Assembly: GCA_027346205.1 (NCBI GenBank)
Contig: DAIESR010000353.1
Span: 1 to 16,917, forward strand
From: Beijerinckiaceae bacterium
GTDB lineage: Bacteria > Pseudomonadota > Alphaproteobacteria > Rhizobiales > Beijerinckiaceae
Length of the DNA stretch: 16,917 nucleotides
Direction of reading: 5' to 3'
The position numbers were made by a program, and so were the translations under genes. A model generated the notes under the pieces. It saw only the letters and a program-made list of their open reading frames with translations. It had not been told where the DNA came from and searched no databases. Of the stretch, positions 133-16,627 are shown piece by piece; within the stretch, counting starts at the first letter, position 1; each line of letters opens with the position of its first letter.

Positions 133-228
133 ACGGCACGCGGCTTGGGGGAGGCATCGTCCGTTTTGGCACCAATCTCGTCTGATTTGGCGCAATGCCG
201 GACTTTGCGATGAGATTAAGGTTCTCTC

Positions 229-1263
229 ATGCGGCCGCTCCTGCATCCAACGCTCCTCAATGGTCGGTTCGGCGACCCCGTCCTTTGCCTCGAAACCCTG
301 TTCGAGAAGCAGATCATGCTGTGCGATCTCGGCACTGTCGATGTCCTTTCGTCACGGGAGATCCAGCGCATCGAACATGTCTTCGTCTCTCATGCCCATA
401 TTGATCACTTCATCGGCTTCGATCGCATCCTGCGGATATTGGTGGGGCGCGAGAAGCAGGTTCATCTCTACGGACCGCCCGACTTTGCCGATCGCGTCCG
501 GCATAAGCTTTCCGGCTATCAATGGAATCTCGCCGCCAGCTATCTCTGCGACCTCGCCTTCATCGTGACCGAGATCCACCCATCTTTCGCGACCCGCACC
601 GTCTCTTTTCGTCTGAAGAACGGCTTTGCGCCGGAAGAGATCGGCTGCGGCTTTGCGGCAGGCGGCCTTATCTTGAACGGAGCGAGCTTTCGGGTTCACG
701 GTGCTGTTTTGGATCACCGAACGCCCTGCCTTGCCTTTGCGATCACGGAAGTGGCACATGTCAACATTTGGAAAACGGAACTCGCCAAGCTCGGTCTGCC
801 GATCGGACCATGGCTGCATGATCTCAAGCGCGCAGTGCTCGGCGGTGCGCCGGATGATCTGAAGATCCAGATCGAAGCGCCGGAATTAGCGAACGGCAGC
901 CGCGAAATAGAGCTGGGTGCGCTACGCAATGTCTATAAGATCACGCCAGGGCAGAAGATCGGCTATGTGACGGATATTGGCGATACGCCAGACAATCGCC
1001 GTGGCGTTGTGCAACTCGTCGAGGGCGCCGACATTCTGTTCATCGAAGCGCCCTTTATCGGCGCGGACAGGGCGTTGGCGGCGGAGCGCGCCCATCTCAC
1101 CACCGTCGCGGCTGGCGAGATTGCGCGCGCCGCCAAGATACGCCACGTCGAGCCGTTCCATTTCTCGCCGCGCTATGCCGGTCAAGAGCAGCGCATGCTG
1201 GCAGAAGTCGCCGAGGCCTTTGTCGGCACCTGCCGGCCCGAAACAGGACACAAATACGCATGA
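229..1263 (+). CDS. RNase Z-like MBL-fold metallohydrolase
   Basis: This 344-residue protein belongs to the metallo-beta-lactamase superfamily, close to ribonuclease Z (tRNA 3' endonuclease). The metal-binding signature HAHIDH is at residues 55-60. Other likely ligands are H163 (in LDHRTP), D249 (in YVTDIGDTP) and H311 (in EPFHFSPRY). An AHLT motif at residues 288-291 matches a histidine motif of the RNase Z group. No signal peptide or membrane segment is seen, so it is probably cytoplasmic. The gene is first of three in an apparent operon behind a perfect FixK/FNR box and overlaps the next gene by 4 nt. Whether its substrate is tRNA or something else cannot be read from the sequence. The THUMP neighbour suggests RNA. 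It could be a diverged paralogue rather than the housekeeping RNase Z. Confidence 0.85.
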   Translation: MRPLLHPTLLNGRFGDPVLCLETLFEKQIMLCDLGTVDVLSSREIQRIEHVFVSHAHIDHFIGFDRILRILVGREKQVHLYGPPDFADRVRHKLSGYQWNLAASYLCDLAFIVTEIHPSFATRTVSFRLKNGFAPEEIGCGFAAGGLILNGASFRVHGAVLDHRTPCLAFAITEVAHVNIWKTELAKLGLPIGPWLHDLKRAVLGGAPDDLKIQIEAPELANGSREIELGALRNVYKITPGQKIGYVTDIGDTPDNRRGVVQLVEGADILFIEAPFIGADRALAAERAHLTTVAAGEIARAAKIRHVEPFHFSPRYAGQEQRMLAEVAEAFVGTCRPETGHKYA

Positions 1264-1799
1264 GGGACTGGAACGTCATCGTCACCGTCTTTCAGGACGG
1301 CTTCCGGCGCGCGTTGCGCGCCTTGAAGACGTTCGGCGCAGTCGAGCACGGCTATTATCACAATGTGCTCGGGATGAAGGTCGACGATCCCATGGCCTTG
1401 CTTCAAGCCATTGAGCAGCAGACGGCGCTTGAGCCGGCGCTGTTCGATTCCATCTCGCGCGTCGCCCCCGCAATGCAGACTTTCGAGTTCCACTCTGCCG
1501 AAGAGTTTCGGGAGAAAGCAAGAGCGGCCGTGCTGAAATGGGTTCCTGATCTTGCCGGCCGATCGTTCCATGTCCGCTTGCATCGCCGCGGCTTCAAACA
1601 TGAGCTGGAATCGCCAGCGGCCGAAAAAAGTCTCGCCGAGGCACTTCTTGACGCGCTCGCGGAGCAAGGCAGTTCGGCCTCCATTTCTTTTTCGGATCCG
1701 GATGTGATCATCTCGATCGATACGATCGATCACCGCGCGGGCTTAGCGGTCTTCACAAGAGAGGATCTTGCACATCATCCGCTGCTGAGACCGGATTAG
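1260..1799 (+). CDS. THUMP-domain protein, putative RNA-binding
   Basis: This 179-residue protein starts at an ATG that overlaps the stop codon of the MBL-fold gene (ATGA, 4 nt), which points to translational coupling. Residues about 75-165 look like a THUMP domain: the strand FHVRLHRRGFKHEL, then a conserved helix beginning AAEKSLAEALLDAL, then the hydrophobic strand pair VIISIDTID and AGLAVFTRED. THUMP domains bind RNA, usually the acceptor end of tRNA, and are normally fused to a catalytic domain such as a methyltransferase, deaminase or ThiI. No catalytic domain is visible here, so the protein may be an RNA-binding partner, as Tan1 is in yeast tRNA acetylation. Pairing with an RNase Z-like hydrolase supports an RNA role, but the reaction is unknown. 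Assignment rests on motif reading only. Confidence 0.7.
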   Translation: MRDWNVIVTVFQDGFRRALRALKTFGAVEHGYYHNVLGMKVDDPMALLQAIEQQTALEPALFDSISRVAPAMQTFEFHSAEEFREKARAAVLKWVPDLAGRSFHVRLHRRGFKHELESPAAEKSLAEALLDALAEQGSSASISFSDPDVIISIDTIDHRAGLAVFTREDLAHHPLLRPD

Positions 1800-1826
1800 A
1801 CGCGCACGCCACGTCAAAGAGAGGCA

Positions 1827-3698
1827 ATGGGGAGGGCAATGGGATCTGCCTGGGGGCTGCGCGCCGCCGCGCGCGAGATAAATTCAAACGATCTTATCGA
1901 CCCTAAAGAGGCCGGCACTCTGTGGGGGCTCTTCTGCGAGCGAGTCCGGCGTAGTTCGGATACGATCGCCTATCGCGAATATGACGGCTTGGCACAATGC
2001 TGGCGCGACCACTCGTGGCGCATGATGGCGGCGCGGACCGACCGCTTCAGAGCGGCTTTCGCCAAAGAGGGGTTGCAGCCCGGCGATCGTATTGCCGTGC
2101 TTCTGCACAATGGCATCGATTGGGTGTGCTTCGACATGGCTGCGCATGGGCAGGGTCTGGTCGTCGTTGCGCTCTACCCACAGGACAGCACGGCTGACCA
2201 AGCCTATATCCTTGCGCATTCGGACGCTCGCTTGGCGCTTGTCGATACATGGGCGAGGTGGAGAGCGCTTCAGGGCGCGCCGATAAGGCTTTCAGCCCTC
2301 GCGCGCGTCTGGATTCGCGAGCCTGCTGGAGACGCCGGCGCGCAAGCAAAAGATGGGCTCGTCCGCGAGTTCGCTGATGTTTTGGAGGAAGCATCCGGAC
2401 CCGTGCCAGAGCCGGACGTTGAGCCCACCGCCTTGGCGACATTGATCTATACGTCCGGCACGACGGGTCGGCCTAAAGGCGTGATGCTGTCGCATGCCGC
2501 GCTTCTTTGGAACGCCGTCGCCGTCGCCGCCGTCATACCCCCGCGCCCCGACGATGTGTTCCTGTCGGTGCTTCCGCTCGCCCATGCCTTCGAGAGAACT
2601 GTCGGCTGCTACCTCGCCATGATGGGAGGTGCGGCCGTCGCCTATGCACGCTCGCCGCAGCATCTTGTCGAGGATGTGAAAACTATTCGCCCGACGGTTC
2701 TGCTCGGAGTTCCGCGGCTCTTCGAAAGAATTCATGCCGTGATCCTGGCGAGAGGCGAGGCGAACTGGATTGGCGGTGCTCTGCTGCGCCTTTTGGCTTC
2801 GCTGGGATGGCGAAGGTTCCAAGCGCAGACGCATGCAGGAGGCAGATTGGGTCTTGCCGCACGCCTGATCCTGTGCCTTCTCGATCGCTGGGTCGGCGCG
2901 CCGCTCCTGGCCGCCTTCGGAAGCCGGTTGCGGGTGATTGTCAGCGGCGGTGCGCCGCTTGATCAGGTCGCCGCGCGTTTCCTGATCGGCGTCGGCTTCC
3001 CTTTGGTCGAAGGCTATGGCCTCACCGAGGCGGGGCCCGTTGTTGCCGCGACTGCCTTCGAGGACAGCGTGCCGGGATCGGTCGGGCGGCCGCTGCCCGG
3101 TGTCGAGGTGAAGCTCGGCGAGGCCGATGAACTCTTGGTGCGCTCACCCTCGCTCATGATGGGCTATTGGAAGGACAAGGCCGAGACGGCCCACGCATTC
3201 TCCGACACGGATTGGCTCGCTACAGGCGATATTGCCGAAATCAAGGATGGTCGGATCTATATCCGCGGCCGTCTCAAGGAGATCATCATCCTGTCGATCG
3301 GCGAGAAGATCAATCCGAGCCTCATCGAGGCGGAAATGGCGCGTGACGCCTTGTTCCAGCAGGTCGCCGTCATCGGCGAAGGCCGGCCCTTCCTCGCCGT
3401 GCTTGCTGTTCTCGATCCAGAGCGCTGGGCTCGTTTTGCACAAGAAAATCAACTCGCACCGGATCAGCCCAATTCGCCCGCTGCGAAAGAACTCGTCCTC
3501 GCTCGTTTGGCGGTGAGACTCGCAACCGTCCCACGCTACGCACAAATTCACGCCGTGCATCTCTCTCTCGTACCATGGACGATCGATGCGGGACTTCTCA
3601 CGCCCACCCTCAAGGTCAAACGCGAGGTGCTGCAAAATCGGTTCGGTGACGAGATCGAAGCGCTATATGCCGCGCATCGACCGCCGATATCGATTTGA
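1827..3698 (+). CDS. AMP-dependent synthetase/ligase, long-chain acyl-CoA synthetase type
   Basis: This 623-residue adenylate-forming enzyme should activate a carboxylic acid, probably a fatty acid, to acyl-AMP and then acyl-CoA. The ATP-binding loop YTSGTTGRPKG is at residues 208-218, the adenine-binding motif EGYGLTEAGP at 395-404, TGD at 467-469, the hinge motif RGRLKE at 480-485, and the C-terminal lysine motif LTPTLKVKR at 591-599. Motif spacing and length fit the FAA1-type long-chain acyl-CoA synthetases. The start is uncertain: the ATG at 1827 follows AGAGAGG, while the in-frame ATG at 1839 follows GGGAGGG with only 2 nt between. It lies 27 nt after the THUMP gene and is likely the last gene of the FixK-box operon. 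Substrate range cannot be told from sequence. No membrane segment is obvious. Confidence 0.88.
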   Translation: MGRAMGSAWGLRAAAREINSNDLIDPKEAGTLWGLFCERVRRSSDTIAYREYDGLAQCWRDHSWRMMAARTDRFRAAFAKEGLQPGDRIAVLLHNGIDWVCFDMAAHGQGLVVVALYPQDSTADQAYILAHSDARLALVDTWARWRALQGAPIRLSALARVWIREPAGDAGAQAKDGLVREFADVLEEASGPVPEPDVEPTALATLIYTSGTTGRPKGVMLSHAALLWNAVAVAAVIPPRPDDVFLSVLPLAHAFERTVGCYLAMMGGAAVAYARSPQHLVEDVKTIRPTVLLGVPRLFERIHAVILARGEANWIGGALLRLLASLGWRRFQAQTHAGGRLGLAARLILCLLDRWVGAPLLAAFGSRLRVIVSGGAPLDQVAARFLIGVGFPLVEGYGLTEAGPVVAATAFEDSVPGSVGRPLPGVEVKLGEADELLVRSPSLMMGYWKDKAETAHAFSDTDWLATGDIAEIKDGRIYIRGRLKEIIILSIGEKINPSLIEAEMARDALFQQVAVIGEGRPFLAVLAVLDPERWARFAQENQLAPDQPNSPAAKELVLARLAVRLATVPRYAQIHAVHLSLVPWTIDAGLLTPTLKVKREVLQNRFGDEIEALYAAHRPPISI

Positions 3699-3719
3699 AT
3701 ATTTTGATGATCGAGTTTG

Positions 3720-3763
3720 GAGCGTTTTCCGATCGGATGGAATCATCCGATCGGAAAACGCTC
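3720..3763. repeat. Long perfect palindrome (20-bp arms) in rhizobial-type intergenic element
   Basis: Arms 3720-3739 (starting GAGCGTTTTCCGATCGG) and 3744-3763 are exact reverse complements around a 4-nt loop, GAAT. The hairpin lies 22 nt past the stop of the acyl-CoA ligase gene and between convergent genes, so it could end transcription or protect RNA 3' ends. No T-run follows it, so it is not a classic intrinsic terminator. The layout resembles palindromic modules of Rhizobium intergenic mosaic elements. Confidence 0.8.
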
Positions 3764-3794
3764 ACAATCAATATATTCTGGCATGCCCTTCATC

Positions 3795-3830
3795 GGAAAA
3801 GTCTTTCAACTTTTCCGGGACATGCTCTAG
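3795..3830 (-). repeat. 36-bp dispersed repeat module, copy 1
   Basis: This module matches 32 of 36 bases of the inverted copy at 12683-12718. It contains a hairpin with arms 3794-3802 and 3809-3817 (CGGAAAAGT and ACTTTTCCG) and ends in GGGACATGCTCTAG. It runs a few bases into the 3' end of the ribonucleotide reductase frame, so it supplies the end of that coding sequence. With the palindrome at 3720-3763 it forms one composite element filling the convergent spacer. Confidence 0.75.
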
Positions 3831-6331
3831 TCGGATTCACGCTCCAGCGCACAACAATGCGGCGCCTCGGTGCCCGCCGCTGCTTCGCTGAGTACGGCGC
3901 CACGCACGGCATTGGGACGAAAAACCGTGCAGCCCTTCAACCCCTTTTCATAAGCGATGTCATAGATCCGTTTGAAATCCTCGAAGGAACATTCCTCGGG
4001 CACATTGATCGTCTTGGAAATCGAGTTGTCGACGTAAGGCTGCAGCGCCGCCTGCATGGCCAAATGCGTGGCTGCCGGCAATTCACTGGCGGTGATGAAG
4101 GCATCGGGAAATCCGTCTTTTGATCCGCTTATCTTGCGCCACAGCGCCAAGGCATAGTCGGTCAGCATGAATTCTTTCGGCGCGCCATTTTCTCCGAGCA
4201 CCTTGCGGCTATAAGAGGCTGCGAAAATGGGTTCGAGACCGCTCGAAACATTGCCGGCAAGCAGGCTGATCGTGCCGGTTGGCGCAATCGCGAGGAGATG
4301 GCTGTTGCGAATGCCACTGGCCGCTATGCCGTCGCGGATATCTTCCGGCAAGCTGCGAATGAACGCGCCTGCAAGATATTTATCCTGCTCGAAGAAAGGA
4401 AAGCTGCCTTTTTCCGTGGCGAGATCGATGGAAGCGCGATAGGCCGTATGACAGATGCGACGCATGATGTCGCTGGCGACCTGCAACGAGGCCTCGCTGC
4501 CGTAAGTAACGCCCAGCATCAGCAGAGCGTCGGCGAGGCCAGTGATGCCAAGCCCGATGCGACGCGTTCCTTTTGCCTGCGCAGCCTGCTGTGGCAAGGG
4601 AAAGCGCGAGATATCGATGACATCATCCAGGAGGCGAACGGCGATCGGCACACTTGCCGTGAGTGCATCGAAATCGAAACTGGCATTCAGCGTAAAGGGG
4701 CGGCTGACGAAGCGGGTCAGATTGAGCGATCCGAGATCGCAAGCGCCATAGGGCGGCAGCGGGATCTCGCCGCATGGATTGGTAGCGTCGATCCGCTCGC
4801 GGTACCAGAGATTATTGAGATGATTGATGCGATCGATAAAGAGGACGCCGGGCTCCGCGTAGTCATAGGTCGCGGCGAGAAGCCGACGCCATAGAGCCCG
4901 GGCGCCGATGTGTCGAATGACTCGGCACGGTGCCGATTCGGTCATTCCCGACCACTGGCGCAGGAGAGTCGGCCCCTCGCCTTCGATCGCCACTGCGGGA
5001 AAGAGCAACGGCCATTCGGCATCGTTGCGCACGGCCGCCATGAATTCATCCGTGATCAGAACCGACAGATTAAAGTGACGAAGCTGTCCAGCCTGCTGCT
5101 TGGCGGCAATGAACTCTTCAATATCGGGATGGTCGCAGCGCAATGTCGCCATCATGGCGCCCCGGCGAGCACCGGTGGAAAGAATCGTGTCGCACATCGA
5201 GTCCCAGACGCGCATGAAAGACACGGGGCCAGAGGCGATACTGCCGACGCCCCGTGCGATTGTGCCGCGCGGCCGCAGAGTCGAGAAGTCGCAACCAATG
5301 CCGCCGCCTTGCTGCATCGTCGTCGCCGAGTCCTGCAAAGCGGCGAAAATGCCTGGGATCGAATCTTCGATCGTCCCCATCACAAAGCAATTGAAGAGCG
5401 TGACATTGCGGCCGGTGCCTGCCCCGGCGTCGATACGGCCGCCAGGGAGAAATTTAAAACCCTGCAACAGCTCGAAGAATCGTTCTTCCCAACTGTCCTG
5501 GCCTGAAGGCTCCGCGCTTGCGAGCGCATGCGCGACGCGTCGCCAGCTTTCGATGATCGATCGCTCCTCAATGCCATGCCCGACATAGCGGTACTTGGTT
5601 TCCCACACATGGCGCGAGATTTCTGTGGTGAGATCATCCATGGTCACGCTCACACATTCCAAAGGTCTGCCGGCCGCCTCTGTCGAGTAGGACCTTGTCG
5701 CACGCGCCGATAGACTATCACAGAGAGGAATCGAAGCGACGACCTCATAGCCGAGCCCCTGCTGCTGCGGGGATCGGAAGAGTTCGATCGACCGAACTGT
5801 CTGCTTGAATGAGAGCTGGCGATCCATCGGCTGCATTTGGGCGATCCTGCACCCATTTTTGCCGAGGCGGGCCAAGGTCACATGCGGTCGAAGTGGTCTC
5901 TCGTCGGTTTGATTGAATGCCGAGAGCAGCAGCATCTGCAAGAGACGAAGCTCATCCGTCGCTGCGCATTCCACCCAAAGAAATTTCGACTCTATAGGCG
6001 CGGGTCCGTAGTTCAGATGTTCGAAGGCGAGGGTGAAGCTGCCGATCGATTGCAGTGCTTTTCGCAAGATATCAGCGGCGGCCTCGACATTCGCCTCTTT
6101 CCATGGCGGCACCAGCGTCAGATGAAGATCGGCAGCAGGGACGAGCCGAACCGAAGGATCTTCGAGAGGCCGGGCGATTTTCGCGAGCGCGGATGCAATC
6201 TCGGGGGCGACCTTGATGCCGACGAAGAGGCGGGCAGGACGCTGCTGGCCCGCGCCGCTCATGTCCTCCGATGGACCAGCCAGTTCGGATGCCATAGAAA
6301 GGTCAGGCTCCATACGACGTCTCGCTATCAT
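3827..6331 (-). CDS. nrdJ: 2'-5' RNA ligase domain fused to B12-dependent class II ribonucleotide reductase
   Basis: One unbroken frame of 834 codons carries two domains. Residues about 33-200 look like a LigT/ThpR-type 2'-5' RNA ligase or RNA 2',3'-cyclic phosphodiesterase, with the paired motifs HLTL (70-73) and HVTL (150-153) about 80 residues apart. Residues 231-834 are an adenosylcobalamin-dependent class II ribonucleotide reductase, which makes deoxynucleotides without oxygen. The redox cysteines are likely C315 (FNCFV) and C531, and the thiyl-radical cysteine C520 in NPCGE. The spacing C520 to C531 equals that in Thermotoga NrdJ. PTGTISLLAG is at 684-693, and a vicinal CC at 826-827 may regenerate the active site. 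The reductase could start alone at M231 (position 5641), but no Shine-Dalgarno precedes it, which favours a fusion. The upstream start is also uncertain (6331, 6313, 6295 or 6262). It is probably the last gene of the CBS-DUF3775 operon. Confidence 0.9.
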   Translation of the reverse strand: MIARRRMEPDLSMASELAGPSEDMSGAGQQRPARLFVGIKVAPEIASALAKIARPLEDPSVRLVPAADLHLTLVPPWKEANVEAAADILRKALQSIGSFTLAFEHLNYGPAPIESKFLWVECAATDELRLLQMLLLSAFNQTDERPLRPHVTLARLGKNGCRIAQMQPMDRQLSFKQTVRSIELFRSPQQQGLGYEVVASIPLCDSLSARATRSYSTEAAGRPLECVSVTMDDLTTEISRHVWETKYRYVGHGIEERSIIESWRRVAHALASAEPSGQDSWEERFFELLQGFKFLPGGRIDAGAGTGRNVTLFNCFVMGTIEDSIPGIFAALQDSATTMQQGGGIGCDFSTLRPRGTIARGVGSIASGPVSFMRVWDSMCDTILSTGARRGAMMATLRCDHPDIEEFIAAKQQAGQLRHFNLSVLITDEFMAAVRNDAEWPLLFPAVAIEGEGPTLLRQWSGMTESAPCRVIRHIGARALWRRLLAATYDYAEPGVLFIDRINHLNNLWYRERIDATNPCGEIPLPPYGACDLGSLNLTRFVSRPFTLNASFDFDALTASVPIAVRLLDDVIDISRFPLPQQAAQAKGTRRIGLGITGLADALLMLGVTYGSEASLQVASDIMRRICHTAYRASIDLATEKGSFPFFEQDKYLAGAFIRSLPEDIRDGIAASGIRNSHLLAIAPTGTISLLAGNVSSGLEPIFAASYSRKVLGENGAPKEFMLTDYALALWRKISGSKDGFPDAFITASELPAATHLAMQAALQPYVDNSISKTINVPEECSFEDFKRIYDIAYEKGLKGCTVFRPNAVRGAVLSEAAAGTEAPHCCALERESD

Positions 6332-6358: not shown

Positions 6359-6772
6359 TCAGGCTGCTTCGGACTCGTAAAGCCCTTTTTGAAGGTGGTC
6401 GTGCAGATCGGCATCTTCCATGAGCGCTGCGGTGAGAGCGGCGGCGCCCAAGAGTTCCGCTTCGGAAACGCCGTGATGCCATTTTTCCGCGGCGAGATCA
6501 CCTTGGCCGATGCGCATCAAAGTATAGAGCTCGACGCGCGCCGCGGGCGTGAGTGCCGCGATGGCGTCACGCAATGCGGTCAACTGTTCGGATTCGGGAG
6601 CGAGCGGTTGATAGCCGAGCTCGGCAGTCGGATTATGTTCTCCACGCGCAGGCTCGGTCCCGCCTAGATCCTCTTCGGCGACATTGCCAAGAAGCGCGTC
6701 ACGCTGTGTGCGAGCGGTCTTGGCCAGAAGAGCAATGAAGTGAGCTTGGTCGCTCGTAAGATTTTTTAGCAT
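6359..6772 (-). CDS. DUF3775 domain-containing protein
   Basis: I chose the ATG at 6772 because AGGAG stands 7 nt before it. The same frame could begin at 6838, but that segment has no such site. The 137-residue product begins MLKNLTSDQAHFIALLAKTAR. Its C-terminal half, around ALTPAARVELYTLMRIGQGDL, is typical of DUF3775, a small family of unknown function common in Hyphomicrobiales. The protein is acidic and soluble by appearance. It lies 27 nt before the furthest start of the 2'-5' RNA ligase/reductase frame and 99 nt after the CBS gene, so the three are probably transcribed together. Nothing in the sequence reveals a catalytic site. Confidence 0.75.
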   Translation of the reverse strand: MLKNLTSDQAHFIALLAKTARTQRDALLGNVAEEDLGGTEPARGEHNPTAELGYQPLAPESEQLTALRDAIAALTPAARVELYTLMRIGQGDLAAEKWHHGVSEAELLGAAALTAALMEDADLHDHLQKGLYESEAA

Positions 6773-10295: not shown

Positions 10296-10372
10296 TGGTA
10301 GCGGAGGAGGGACTCGAACCCCCGACACAAGGATTATGATTCCTCTGCTCTAGCCGGCTGAGCTACTCCGCC
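10296..10372 (-). tRNA. tRNA-Met (CAT), elongator type
   Basis: The minus strand folds as a complete cloverleaf: acceptor GGCGGAG with CTCCGCT (first pair G-T), D-arm GCTC/GAGC, anticodon stem GAGGA/TCCTT with loop ATCATAA (anticodon CAT), T-arm GGGGG/CCCTC with loop TTCGAGT, discriminator A and encoded CCA. The acceptor stem and the sequence around the anticodon match elongator tRNA-Met of alphaproteobacteria rather than initiator tRNA. A lysidine-modified tRNA-Ile2 also has CAT but usually a different acceptor. It stands alone between the DUF2267 operon and the methyltransferase gene. Confidence 0.95.
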
Positions 10373-14015: not shown

Positions 14016-15551
14016 ATGAACGAGGATCTCGCTGCCCGTGCATGTGAAGGTCCGGTTGTGGACCGGCATTTGCGCGTGGCGATCGCTGCCGGAAATTGCG
14101 GCACCTTCGAATGGGATCTCAGATCGCAGGCGATCCATTGGGTCGACTTCCGGGCGTGGGCGTCGGGTGAACCACAGTTCGTCGCATCGAATGTCGCTGC
14201 CTTCATCGCCATGCTCGATCCCTTGGAACGCACCGAAATGCGTCAGGCGGCACGGGTGGCATTGCGGAAGGGCACTTTCGACGTTCGGTTCCGCCTGCGA
14301 GAGGTCGACGGCACGGTGCGCTGCCTGCGGGCTCAGGGTCGCCTGTTTCGTGAGGCAGGGGGGCGGCCGGCGAAGATCATCGGCATCGTCCGCGATACTG
14401 CCGACCAGAAGCAAGTCGAGCGGGAGTTGCGCGCTCGCGAGGAGCATCTGCGGCTCATTCTCGAGACCGTGCCCGATGCGATGATCATCATCGACGAGGT
14501 GGGAAGGATCCAATCCTTCAGCCAAGCGGCCGTGCGCCTGTTCGGCTATCGGCCGGAAGAGGTGATCGGCTCCAATGTGCATGTGCTGATGCCGGAGCCC
14601 GACCGCGGCCGCCACGACGGCTATATGCAGCGCTATCAGCGGACAGGCGAGCGCAAAATCATTGGCATTGGCCGTGTCGTGACTGGCCGGCGGAAGGACG
14701 GCTCAACCTTTCCCATGCATCTCTCGGTTGGCGAGTTGCAGAGCGCGGGACGGCGCAGCTTCACCGGTTTCGTCCGCGATCTCACGGAGCGGCAGGAGAA
14801 TATGGCGAAGCTGCAGGAGCTGCAGTCCGAGCTGGTGCATGTCTCCCGCCTGTTGGCCATGGGCGAGATGGCCTCGGGCCTCGCGCATGAGCTGAACCAG
14901 CCTTTGACAGCTATAGCCAATTATATGAAAGGCTGTCGTCGCTTGTTGCAGGATGTCGAGCATCCGCAGCGGGCAACGATCCAGGATGCTCTGGACAAGG
15001 CCGCCGACCAAGCTCTGCGCGCGGGTCAGATCATCCGCCGGCTGCGTGACTTCGCGGCGCGTGGTGAGACCGAGAAGAAGGTCGAGCGCGTTGTCAAAGT
15101 GGTGGAGGAGGCGAGCGCTTTGGCTCTCGTCGGCGCGCGTGAACTCGGCGTGCGGGTACGCCAGGAAGTTGATCCGGGCGTTGATCTGGTGCTGGCTGAT
15201 CGGGTTCAAATCCAGCAAGTTCTGGTCAATCTCTTTCGTAACGCCTTGGAGGCCATGGAGGCGACGGAGCGCCGCGAGCTTGTCGTCACCATCAGCCCAG
15301 CAGCGGATGCGATGGTCGAGGTCGGCGTGGCCGATACCGGTCACGGGATCAAGCCGGAGATCCTGCCTAGGCTCTTCGACCCTTTCGTGACCTCCAAGGC
15401 TAACGGCATGGGGGTCGGCCTCTCGATCTGCAAGACCATTATCGAGGCTCATGGCGGTAAGATGTGGGTCGAGCCGAATCCCGTCGGTGGCACGGTGTTC
15501 CGGTTCACGCTCATGGCCGCCAAAGACGAGAAGGACGACGACAATGTCTGA
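14016..15551 (+). CDS. fixL: Oxygen-sensing heme histidine kinase FixL
   Basis: The 511-residue protein has an N-terminal PAS domain (about 20-135), a heme-binding PAS domain (about 140-260) and a histidine kinase core. The heme ligand H200 (in RGRHDGY) and the O2-sensing R220 (in IGIGRVV) fall at the same residue numbers as in Bradyrhizobium FixL, and the phospho-acceptor is H291 in AHELNQPL. The ATPase part has an N box ([12 protein letters not shown]), DTGHGI and [10 protein letters not shown]. No membrane segment is seen, so it should be soluble like Bradyrhizobium FixL and unlike Sinorhizobium FixL. Without O2 on the heme it autophosphorylates and passes phosphate to FixJ. The gene overlaps fixJ by 8 nt. 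Confidence 0.97.
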
Positions 15552-16158
15552 CGCGATCGTCCATGTCATCGATGACGATTTGGCATTGCGGGATTCGCTT
15601 GCCTTTCTGCTCGGCTCCGTCGGTCTAGTCGTGCGCGCCTTCGAATCGGCGCAAGCCTTTCTTCAGGAACTCACGAGCATAGAGACGGGCTGCGTCGTCA
15701 CAGATATCCGGATGCCGGGAATCGACGGGCTCGAGCTCTTGCGGCTGCTCCAGGAAATGGGCAAGGGATTGCCAGTCATCGTTATGACCGGCCATGGCGA
15801 TGTGCCGCTCGCCGTCAAGGCGATGCGGCTTGGCGCCGCCGATTTCGTCGAAAAGCCGTTCGACGACGAGGTCATGATCGATGCCATCCGCTCAGCGCTT
15901 GCGACAAGCTTGCCCATCCAAACCGTGGCGGGCGTCAGCGATGAAATGGCCCTGCGGCTTGCCACGCTCAGCCGTCGGGAGCGGCAGGTGTTGGCAGGTT
16001 TGGTCGAGGGCCAAACCAATAAGGAGATGGCTCGTCAATTCGATTTGAGCCCGCGCACGGTCGAGGTCTACCGGGCAAAACTGATGACCAAGATGCAGGC
16101 CAATAATATTTCGGAACTGGTCCGCTTTGCTATGCGGGCGGGCATGACCGGGGAATGA
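15544..16158 (+). CDS. fixJ: Response regulator FixJ
   Basis: I place the start at the ATG at 15544, inside the end of fixL; AAGGA precedes it by 8 nt and the receiver domain starts directly after it. The 204-residue protein has a receiver domain with the acidic cluster IDDD (9-12), phosphorylation site D54 (in VVTDIRMPG), the switch threonine in MTGHGD and a lysine in VEKPF. A LuxR/NarL-type helix-turn-helix follows ([22 protein letters not shown], then [14 protein letters not shown]). Length and D54 match FixJ of Bradyrhizobium. Phosphorylated FixJ activates fixK, and so the low-oxygen regulon. It is translationally coupled to fixL. Confidence 0.97.
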
Positions 16159-16168
16159 TTTAGATCAA
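16155..16168 (+). promoter_or_regulatory. Degenerate FixK/FNR-like box overlapping the fixJ stop
   Basis: ATGATTTAGATCAA matches TTGAT-N4-ATCAA in nine of ten defined positions. It covers the fixJ stop codon and is centred about 85 nt before the next response-regulator gene, so a -41.5 position would start a transcript near 16203. It could give FixK feedback on that gene. Chance is a serious alternative. Confidence 0.35.
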
Positions 16169-16246
16169 TTGATGCAGATTACTTTTGATTAGCATGCGTG
16201 CGTCCCGGGGTGAGCCCCATGTGGGTAAAGGTGTCCCGGTATCGTG

Positions 16247-16627
16247 ATGCAAAAAATCATCCATTCCACTATCATCATCGTCGATGATGACGCGCAGGTT
16301 CTACGATCGCTCTGTTTTCTCTTGGAGACGGAGGGCTATCATGTGCTGACCTTCGGTTCCGCTGAGGAGCTTTTGGAGCAGCCCGAATTGCCCGACAACG
16401 TCTGCCTCGTCGTCGATTACCGCATGCCGATCATGAATGGTCTCGATCTCTTGACGCGTGTGCGCGCGAAACATCCGAATGTTCCGGCGCTGCTCATCAC
16501 CGGATATCCCGATGAGACGATCGAGAGCCGAGCCGGCAAGCTTGGAATCAAGGTCGTGCGCAAGCCGCATCTTGACGACGGACTTCTGCAGGGCATTCGC
16601 GATTTGCTCGTGGGCGGAGCCGCCTGA
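16247..16627 (+). CDS. Single-domain response regulator of the fixLJ locus
   Basis: The 126-residue protein is a receiver domain only: acidic residues VDDD (12-15), phosphorylation site D57 in VVDYRMP, switch threonine in LLITGYPD, and conserved lysine in VVRKPH. No output domain follows. A stand-alone receiver also sits between fixJ and fixK2 in Bradyrhizobium (my recollection of bll2758), so the arrangement looks conserved. It may act as a phosphate sink or a competitor of FixJ for FixL. The ATG at 16247 is preferred; a GTG just before it is possible. It lies 88 nt after fixJ and may be co-transcribed or have its own promoter. Confidence 0.9.
   Translation: MQKIIHSTIIIVDDDAQVLRSLCFLLETEGYHVLTFGSAEELLEQPELPDNVCLVVDYRMPIMNGLDLLTRVRAKHPNVPALLITGYPDETIESRAGKLGIKVVRKPHLDDGLLQGIRDLLVGGAA

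Follow-up and report, generated by a model that had tools for sequence, protein, structure and literature searches.

The window, by which we mean the whole 16,917-nucleotide stretch analysed here, carries on its minus strand a frame (6331..3827) that runs for 834 amino acids with no internal stop and joins a LigT-like domain to a class II (B12-dependent) ribonucleotide reductase (RNR). A preliminary description of this DNA had read it as a single open frame linking a class II RNR to a LigT domain in which both HxTx motifs are present, and the Pfam and NCBIfam matches and the active-site cysteines set out below confirm that reading. A LigT-RNR frame by chance alone is unlikely, because the joint architecture recurs in other sequences. 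The true start of the gene is probably residue 7 (giving about 828 amino acids), since the ‘MEP’ found there (position 6313) is conserved among relatives, being the start of P0002 and P0003 and of the split LigT proteins P0121-P0123, P0125 and P0126; P0006 has ‘VEP’ at the same position, and P0001, the database version of the window protein, begins at window residue 13. The genome (G000) is metagenome-like and fragmented, with 2.7 Mb spread over 579 contigs and a completeness of 87%. The features of the window are as follows:

229..1263 (+): RNase Z-like protein (PRK02126), by profile match
1260..1799 (+): THUMP-domain protein; relatives adjoin LigT in loci L065, L066 and L071
3827..6313 (-): fused gene, probable true extent, starting at M7 (‘MEP’)
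3830..5626 (-): class II (B12-dependent) RNR, residues 236-834 (Pfam, NCBIfam, 1xje alignment)
3851..3856 (-): C826-C827, C-terminal cysteine pair, invariant in alignment A1
4739..4741 (-): C531, invariant in A1, aligned with 1xje
4772..4774 (-): C520 in NPCGE, invariant in A1, aligned with 1xje
5387..5389 (-): C315, invariant in A1, aligned with Thermotoga maritima NrdJ 1xje
5627..5722 (-): linker, residues 204-235, predicted to be disordered; 21 residues longer than in P0002, P0003 and P0006
5639..5641 (-): ATG of M231, its first codons overlapped by an other-frame TGA (ATGGATGA); start of split P0004, P0005 and P0009
5651..5653 (-): GTG of V227, candidate internal RNR start, overlapped by an other-frame TGA (GTGA); P0007 and P0010 start here
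5723..6232 (-): LigT-like 2H phosphoesterase domain, residues 34-203 (Pfam, NCBIfam, model)
5873..5884 (-): second HxTx motif, HVTL, residues 150-153, invariant in alignment A2
6113..6124 (-): first HxTx motif, HLTL, residues 70-73, invariant in A2
6359..6772 (-): DUF3775 protein directly upstream of the fusion; start set by comparison with L034
6872..7291 (-): CBS-domain protein (Pfam)
10296-10372 (-): tRNA-Met (cat)

A DUF3775-like neighbour is also found in L034 and before the LigT of genome G180. The RNase Z-like and THUMP frames (229-1799) overlap by four bases and form an RNA-processing pair convergent with the fusion. At 14016-16627 a PAS histidine kinase, a response regulator and another receiver protein follow one another, of which we take the kinase and regulator to be FixL/FixJ-like. 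A search for RNA families gave none at the junction between the two domains, the tRNA being the sole match above gathering score in the window.

The N-terminal domain passed the Pfam cut-offs of LigT_PEase (PF02834; residues 40-107, 40.6 bits, cut-off 23.3) and 2_5_RNA_ligase2 (PF13563; residues 51-187, 47.9 bits, cut-off 27). It missed the cut-off of TIGR02258, the ThpR equivalog, by 1.9 bits (63.8 versus 65.7), and is therefore named LigT-like and not ThpR proper. The activity of the LigT family is that of a 2′,3′-cyclic phosphodiesterase. Both HLTL and HVTL were unchanged in all 13 LigT rows of A2 (window included), and AlphaFold2 modelled residues 31-200 with a mean pLDDT above 85 in all but one of 17 successive blocks of ten residues; a sequence search of the LigT part against solved structures gave no match at E 0.001. 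The domain thus resembles the LigT/ThpR 2′,3′-cyclic phosphodiesterases (TIGR02258, PF02834, PF13563) in its two motifs and Pfam scores, but differs from them in being joined to an RNR and in falling short of TIGR02258.

In the remainder of the protein, Pfam matched Ribonuc_red_lgN at residues 235-308 and Ribonuc_red_lgC at residues 314-803 (430 bits), NCBIfam NrdJ_Z (TIGR02504) scored 583.3 bits (above its curated cut-off of 399.95), and the class II RNR matches of both collections spanned about residues 235-810. A1 shows no change at C315, N518, C520, E522, C531, C826 and C827 across its 13 rows, P0001 among them being a repeat of the window. The active-site residues align with T. maritima NrdJ (1xje), C826-C827 lying outside that alignment. 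We take C315 and C531 to be the first and second cysteines of the redox pair, C520 to be the thiyl-radical cysteine, and N518 and E522 to be the active-site N and E of the RNR. NrdJ/NrdZ enzymes (TIGR02504; T. maritima NrdJ, PDB 1xje) therefore share with the window RNR the family score, the active-site cysteines and the C-terminal cysteine pair, whereas the window RNR has an N-terminal LigT domain, no ATP-cone match and a compact 604-residue body. According to the accessible part of one paper, most RNRs carry an ATP-cone at the end where LigT sits here (PMC11226230). A second RNR-like frame in the same genome (1191 codons, contig C556) is taken as a long class II RNR, and the fused RNR consequently looks like an accessory copy; a few Alphaproteobacteria have two NrdJd enzymes with the cysteine-rich domain in only one, as described in the accessible text of PMC5704485. 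A plasmid origin was considered and rejected: none of 102 plasmid records (E up to 1e-50) covered 80% of the query, the 40 listed records covered 64-73% of it at 43.6-55.5% identity, and two of the 102, outside those 40, were at 60-80% identity.

The preliminary description had called the linker open, and it was placed here at about residues 204-235, with pLDDT below 50 at residues 207-232, a prediction of disorder. AlphaFold2 modelled the reductase part poorly (mean pLDDT 65; pTM 0.54 for the whole), leaving the domain interface unreadable. A Foldseek search with this model returned RNRs of T. maritima and others at an rmsd near 18, and was dropped as evidence because the RNR half was poorly modelled.

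To establish how widely the fusion occurs, as the preliminary description had proposed, the whole protein was searched against about 5.8 billion proteins; scoring covered the 7999 candidates with the most words in common, and the 120 best of these were listed. Among these best 120 of 7999, intact in-frame fusions other than that of the window were found in three protein clusters at 67-72% identity, namely P0002 (72%), P0003 (locus L034; 71%) and P0006 (67%), which rules out a fusion unique to the window; none more distant than 67% was found within the same 120. The homologues are a mixture of fused and split forms, and not always two genes with a stop between them, the counter-case that the preliminary description had named. 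The nearest relatives, P0004 and P0005, are 604-residue RNRs without LigT (91% RNR identity), and P0002, P0003 and P0006 themselves stand among RNRs of about 600 residues without LigT (best 120 of 7999). A search with the LigT part among proteins of fusion size gave four, the window’s own, P0002, P0003 and P0241, all with RNR domains, and sets a lower bound, since it missed the known fusion P0006; the nearest LigT kin are separate proteins of 216-238 residues (P0121 and P0122 at 78% identity). P0008 has a LigT tail in frame, with its annotated start inside that tail and no Met at the LigT-RNR junction, and was counted as fused from the in-frame tail alone. In P0128 and P0241, which are fused and closely related to P0003, the RNR frame is broken at different places, which could be decay or sequencing error. 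The full fusion occurred in two of 397 family genomes (G000 and G008); with the window’s own genome set aside, no RNR above 60% identity appeared among the matches listed from 397 order, 398 phylum and 385 class genomes (E limits 1e-205, 1e-100 and 1e-205, respectively). No report of a LigT-RNR gene fusion was found in open-licence full texts. The protein is thus probably a new domain architecture made from known parts, one that is real, rare, probably repeatedly formed and held by a small clade.

Evidence on the ancestral arrangement came from the split relatives. Five RNR and five LigT proteins lie on contigs of equal size (8692, 2870, 10228, 14151 and 9018 bases) under the same source label, against 0.36 size matches expected by chance (from near misses among 117 x 120 sizes), which pairs them indirectly; should the 2870-base records be a single contig, it has room for the two genes only side by side. 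The protein ends of two such pairs (P0126 ending ...REQ with partner P0010 opening MSMPK..., and P0125 ending ...GHG with partner P0009 opening MDEL...) would fit few-base overlaps of the ATGA and ATGGATGA types; those of P0122/P0005 show no sign of overlap. At the window junction, TGA stops stand in both other frames (at GTGA and ATGGATGA), and one of these frames reads DLWN, close to DLAALWN in the tail of P0125. From the split-pair ends and these matching stops we infer that the window lineage once had an overlapping pair, whose frames would have been merged when the LigT tail underwent a small change out of frame.

A tree built from 25 reductases made the window sister to the split P0004/P0005 (support 100/100), and the AU test rejected the fused rows as one clade (P = 5.1e-5 without P0008; P = 1.7e-71 with P0008), so that a single clade of fused forms is ruled out. 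The fewest fused/split state changes on this tree numbered two, several forks among the other fused rows being weak. A first tree of 47 rows again placed the window with P0004/P0005, and grouped P0002, P0003 and P0006 (SH-aLRT 96); the LigT tree grouped P0002, P0003, P0006 and P0128 (91/86) and set the window elsewhere, at a weakly resolved fork nearest the split P0121. With split nearest relatives and the AU test against one clade, the fusion probably arose at least twice. A single fusion with later re-splitting is possible, though it costs more changes, and parsimony favours repeated fusion. The suggestion in the preliminary description of a recent loss of a stop codon accords with the split nearest relatives and with fused forms that are not one clade, but the recurrence of the fusion means that it was not one freak loss.

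The absence of a Shine-Dalgarno at M231, also claimed earlier, is a fair description: M231 and V227 both scored -3.3 kcal/mol, a value matched or beaten at 31% of 506 background ATG/GTG sites on the minus strand of the window. P0007 and P0010 open at the position of the window’s GTG 227 (VSV/MSM). In L034, CGAGGAGGC lies seven bases upstream of the RNR ATG within the fused frame and reaches -11.8 kcal/mol, a strength attained by none of the 506 window sites. Because of this very strong internal Shine-Dalgarno, L034 probably makes free reductase too, and the window RNR, with only -3.3 at either start, would depend more on read-through from LigT than that of L034. Between the window and L034, pN/pS was 0.45 for LigT (170 codons) and 0.22 for RNR (599 codons), values consistent with constraint on both parts.

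The genomic company of these reductases was compared across 58 RNR loci. RtcB, archease, RtcA or LigT lay within 10 kb in 7 of the 12 loci whose RNRs were at least 57.5% identical, and an RNA-repair gene did so in 1 of the 46 below this value (Fisher P = 1.9e-5), where the 57.5% cut was set post hoc, the loci are partly related, their flanks are unequal (L036 and L041 are short) and the window is positive only through its own fused LigT. Counting RtcA, RtcB and archease alone, 6 of the 12 closer loci were positive (Fisher P = 1.4e-4); with one Beijerinckiaceae locus kept, the comparison became 3/8 versus 1/46 (P = 0.008). Within the closer group, the available stretches of L036, L037, L041, L043 and L141 held no RNA-repair gene. 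The gene order in L034 is RtcB, archease, DUF3775, fusion; the RNR of G319 and G374 (genus group g18) has a split LigT, a THUMP protein and RtcA within several kilobases; and in the gammaproteobacterial loci L035 and L038 the RNR is immediately preceded by archease and RtcB. The L035 stretch (202-5292, from a gammaproteobacterial MAG) reads archease, RtcB, small class II RNR and a PF01941 AdoMet synthetase, all co-directional.

No RtcB, RtcA or archease was found within the window itself; in its genome, archease-RtcB lies on another contig (C360), and RtcA was not found in this 87% complete assembly. Among the 11 genomes of genus group g1, the small RNR and LigT occur together in two and were not found in the other nine, save for a weak LigT match in G003, and four of these nine are at least 97% complete. 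A search for RtcB in 6 of the 11 found it in G000 and G008, and gave no hit in G003, G005, G006 and G007. The Rtc RNA-repair operons (RtcB, RtcA, archease) are akin to this arrangement in that related RNRs or LigTs adjoin the same genes in several loci, but differ in that no RNR was seen in a published Rtc operon: the accessible text of PMC7790460 describes rtcBA and rsr-yrlBA-rtcBA operons and does not contain ‘ribonucleotide’. A Burkholderia low-oxygen locus was considered as a parallel and set aside, ‘ribonucle’ being absent from the accessible text of PMC6127331. As to the earlier proposal that the fusion ties RNA 2′,3′-phosphate chemistry to deoxynucleotide synthesis, what speaks for such a possible tie is the company that LigT and RNR keep with RtcB, archease or RtcA in some genomes.

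Taken together, we consider it probable that the window encodes a young LigT-RNR polypeptide derived from an adjacent gene pair, in which two working enzymes of one stress or RNA-repair module are joined by a flexible linker. The ancestor would have had the two genes side by side within that module, with a probable overlap of a few bases and translational coupling; small changes in the LigT tail, by a base-level route that can be proposed from the junction, would then have brought both genes into one frame, probably at least twice. After fusion, ribosomes making LigT would also make RNR, so that all LigT would be fused, and an internal start, with a strong Shine-Dalgarno in L034 and a weak one in the window, may supply additional free RNR. 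The catalytic residues are retained in both domains, which probably act as independent enzymes on the flexible linker. Under low oxygen or stress, LigT might trim damaged RNA ends while RNR makes deoxynucleotides without oxygen; we infer such a use from the nearby CBS and PAS-kinase/response-regulator genes.

It could be argued that the fusion is nominal, with nearly all RNR translated from its own internal start and the fused product a minor read-on by-product without a role. The very strong Shine-Dalgarno before the L034 RNR ATG, the starts of split relatives at the M231 or V227 position, and the rarity of fused forms that are not one clade would all suit this explanation. However, we hold it to be rather unlikely, as the window’s internal starts have no better than ordinary Shine-Dalgarno strength, any translated LigT must carry RNR where no stop separates the domains, P0008 lacks a Met at the junction, and both domains stay conserved. 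An error of assembly or base calling might likewise be suspected in a genome of 579 contigs at 87% completeness whose nearest relatives are split, yet this is extremely improbable, as other contigs carry three more intact in-frame fusions and the window linker has no long single-base run.

At the other extreme, the two domains might be functionally coupled, LigT sensing or processing 2′,3′-cyclic-phosphate nucleotides or RNA ends and so tuning or feeding RNR during RNA damage or dormancy. We regard this as quite doubtful: a linker predicted to be disordered does not point to any fixed interface between the domains, other RNRs of about 604 residues do without LigT (best 120 of 7999), and the same neighbourhoods would be expected from co-regulation alone. 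Those observations have to be set against the probable repetition of the fusion, the joint presence of LigT, RNR and RtcB in G000 and G008 with the absence of all three from G005, G006, G007 and (apart from its weak LigT match) G003, the RNA-repair neighbours of related RNRs in Gammaproteobacteria as well, and the place of LigT at the RNR end where most RNRs have the ATP-cone (accessible part of PMC11226230).

The fusion was probably formed more than once from one and the same pair of neighbours, a pattern seen when two functions are made together. The wider link of these RNRs with RNA-repair genes is the part worth following: if the neighbourhood holds in a wider count, it would point to a programme that mends RNA and restocks deoxynucleotides when oxygen is short. 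A bolder possibility, which we consider unlikely, is a class II RNR clade dedicated to RNA-repair modules, which accompanies RtcB, archease, RtcA and LigT in both Alpha- and Gammaproteobacteria, is repeatedly fused to LigT, and couples the response to 2′,3′-cyclic-phosphate RNA ends to an oxygen-independent deoxynucleotide supply; products of RNA breakage might even be its substrates or its regulators. No open-licence paper was found that places RtcB and archease with a ribonucleotide reductase, or RtcB with a class II RNR; three such papers mention RtcB, a ribonucleotide reductase and an operon.

Two further loci are worth noting in their own right. In L042 (5052-10292), the sole RNA-repair case below the 57.5% cut, a class II RNR (53% identity) stands with a small protein, which looks like a ribosome-hibernation factor, and a convergent RtcB-archease pair. 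In G211 (L068, 4200-7634), LigT is interrupted by a transposase-like insert, the RNR stops short at roughly 235 residues, and beyond it come a short piece of RtcB and then an archease frame; this locus is a decayed version of the arrangement.
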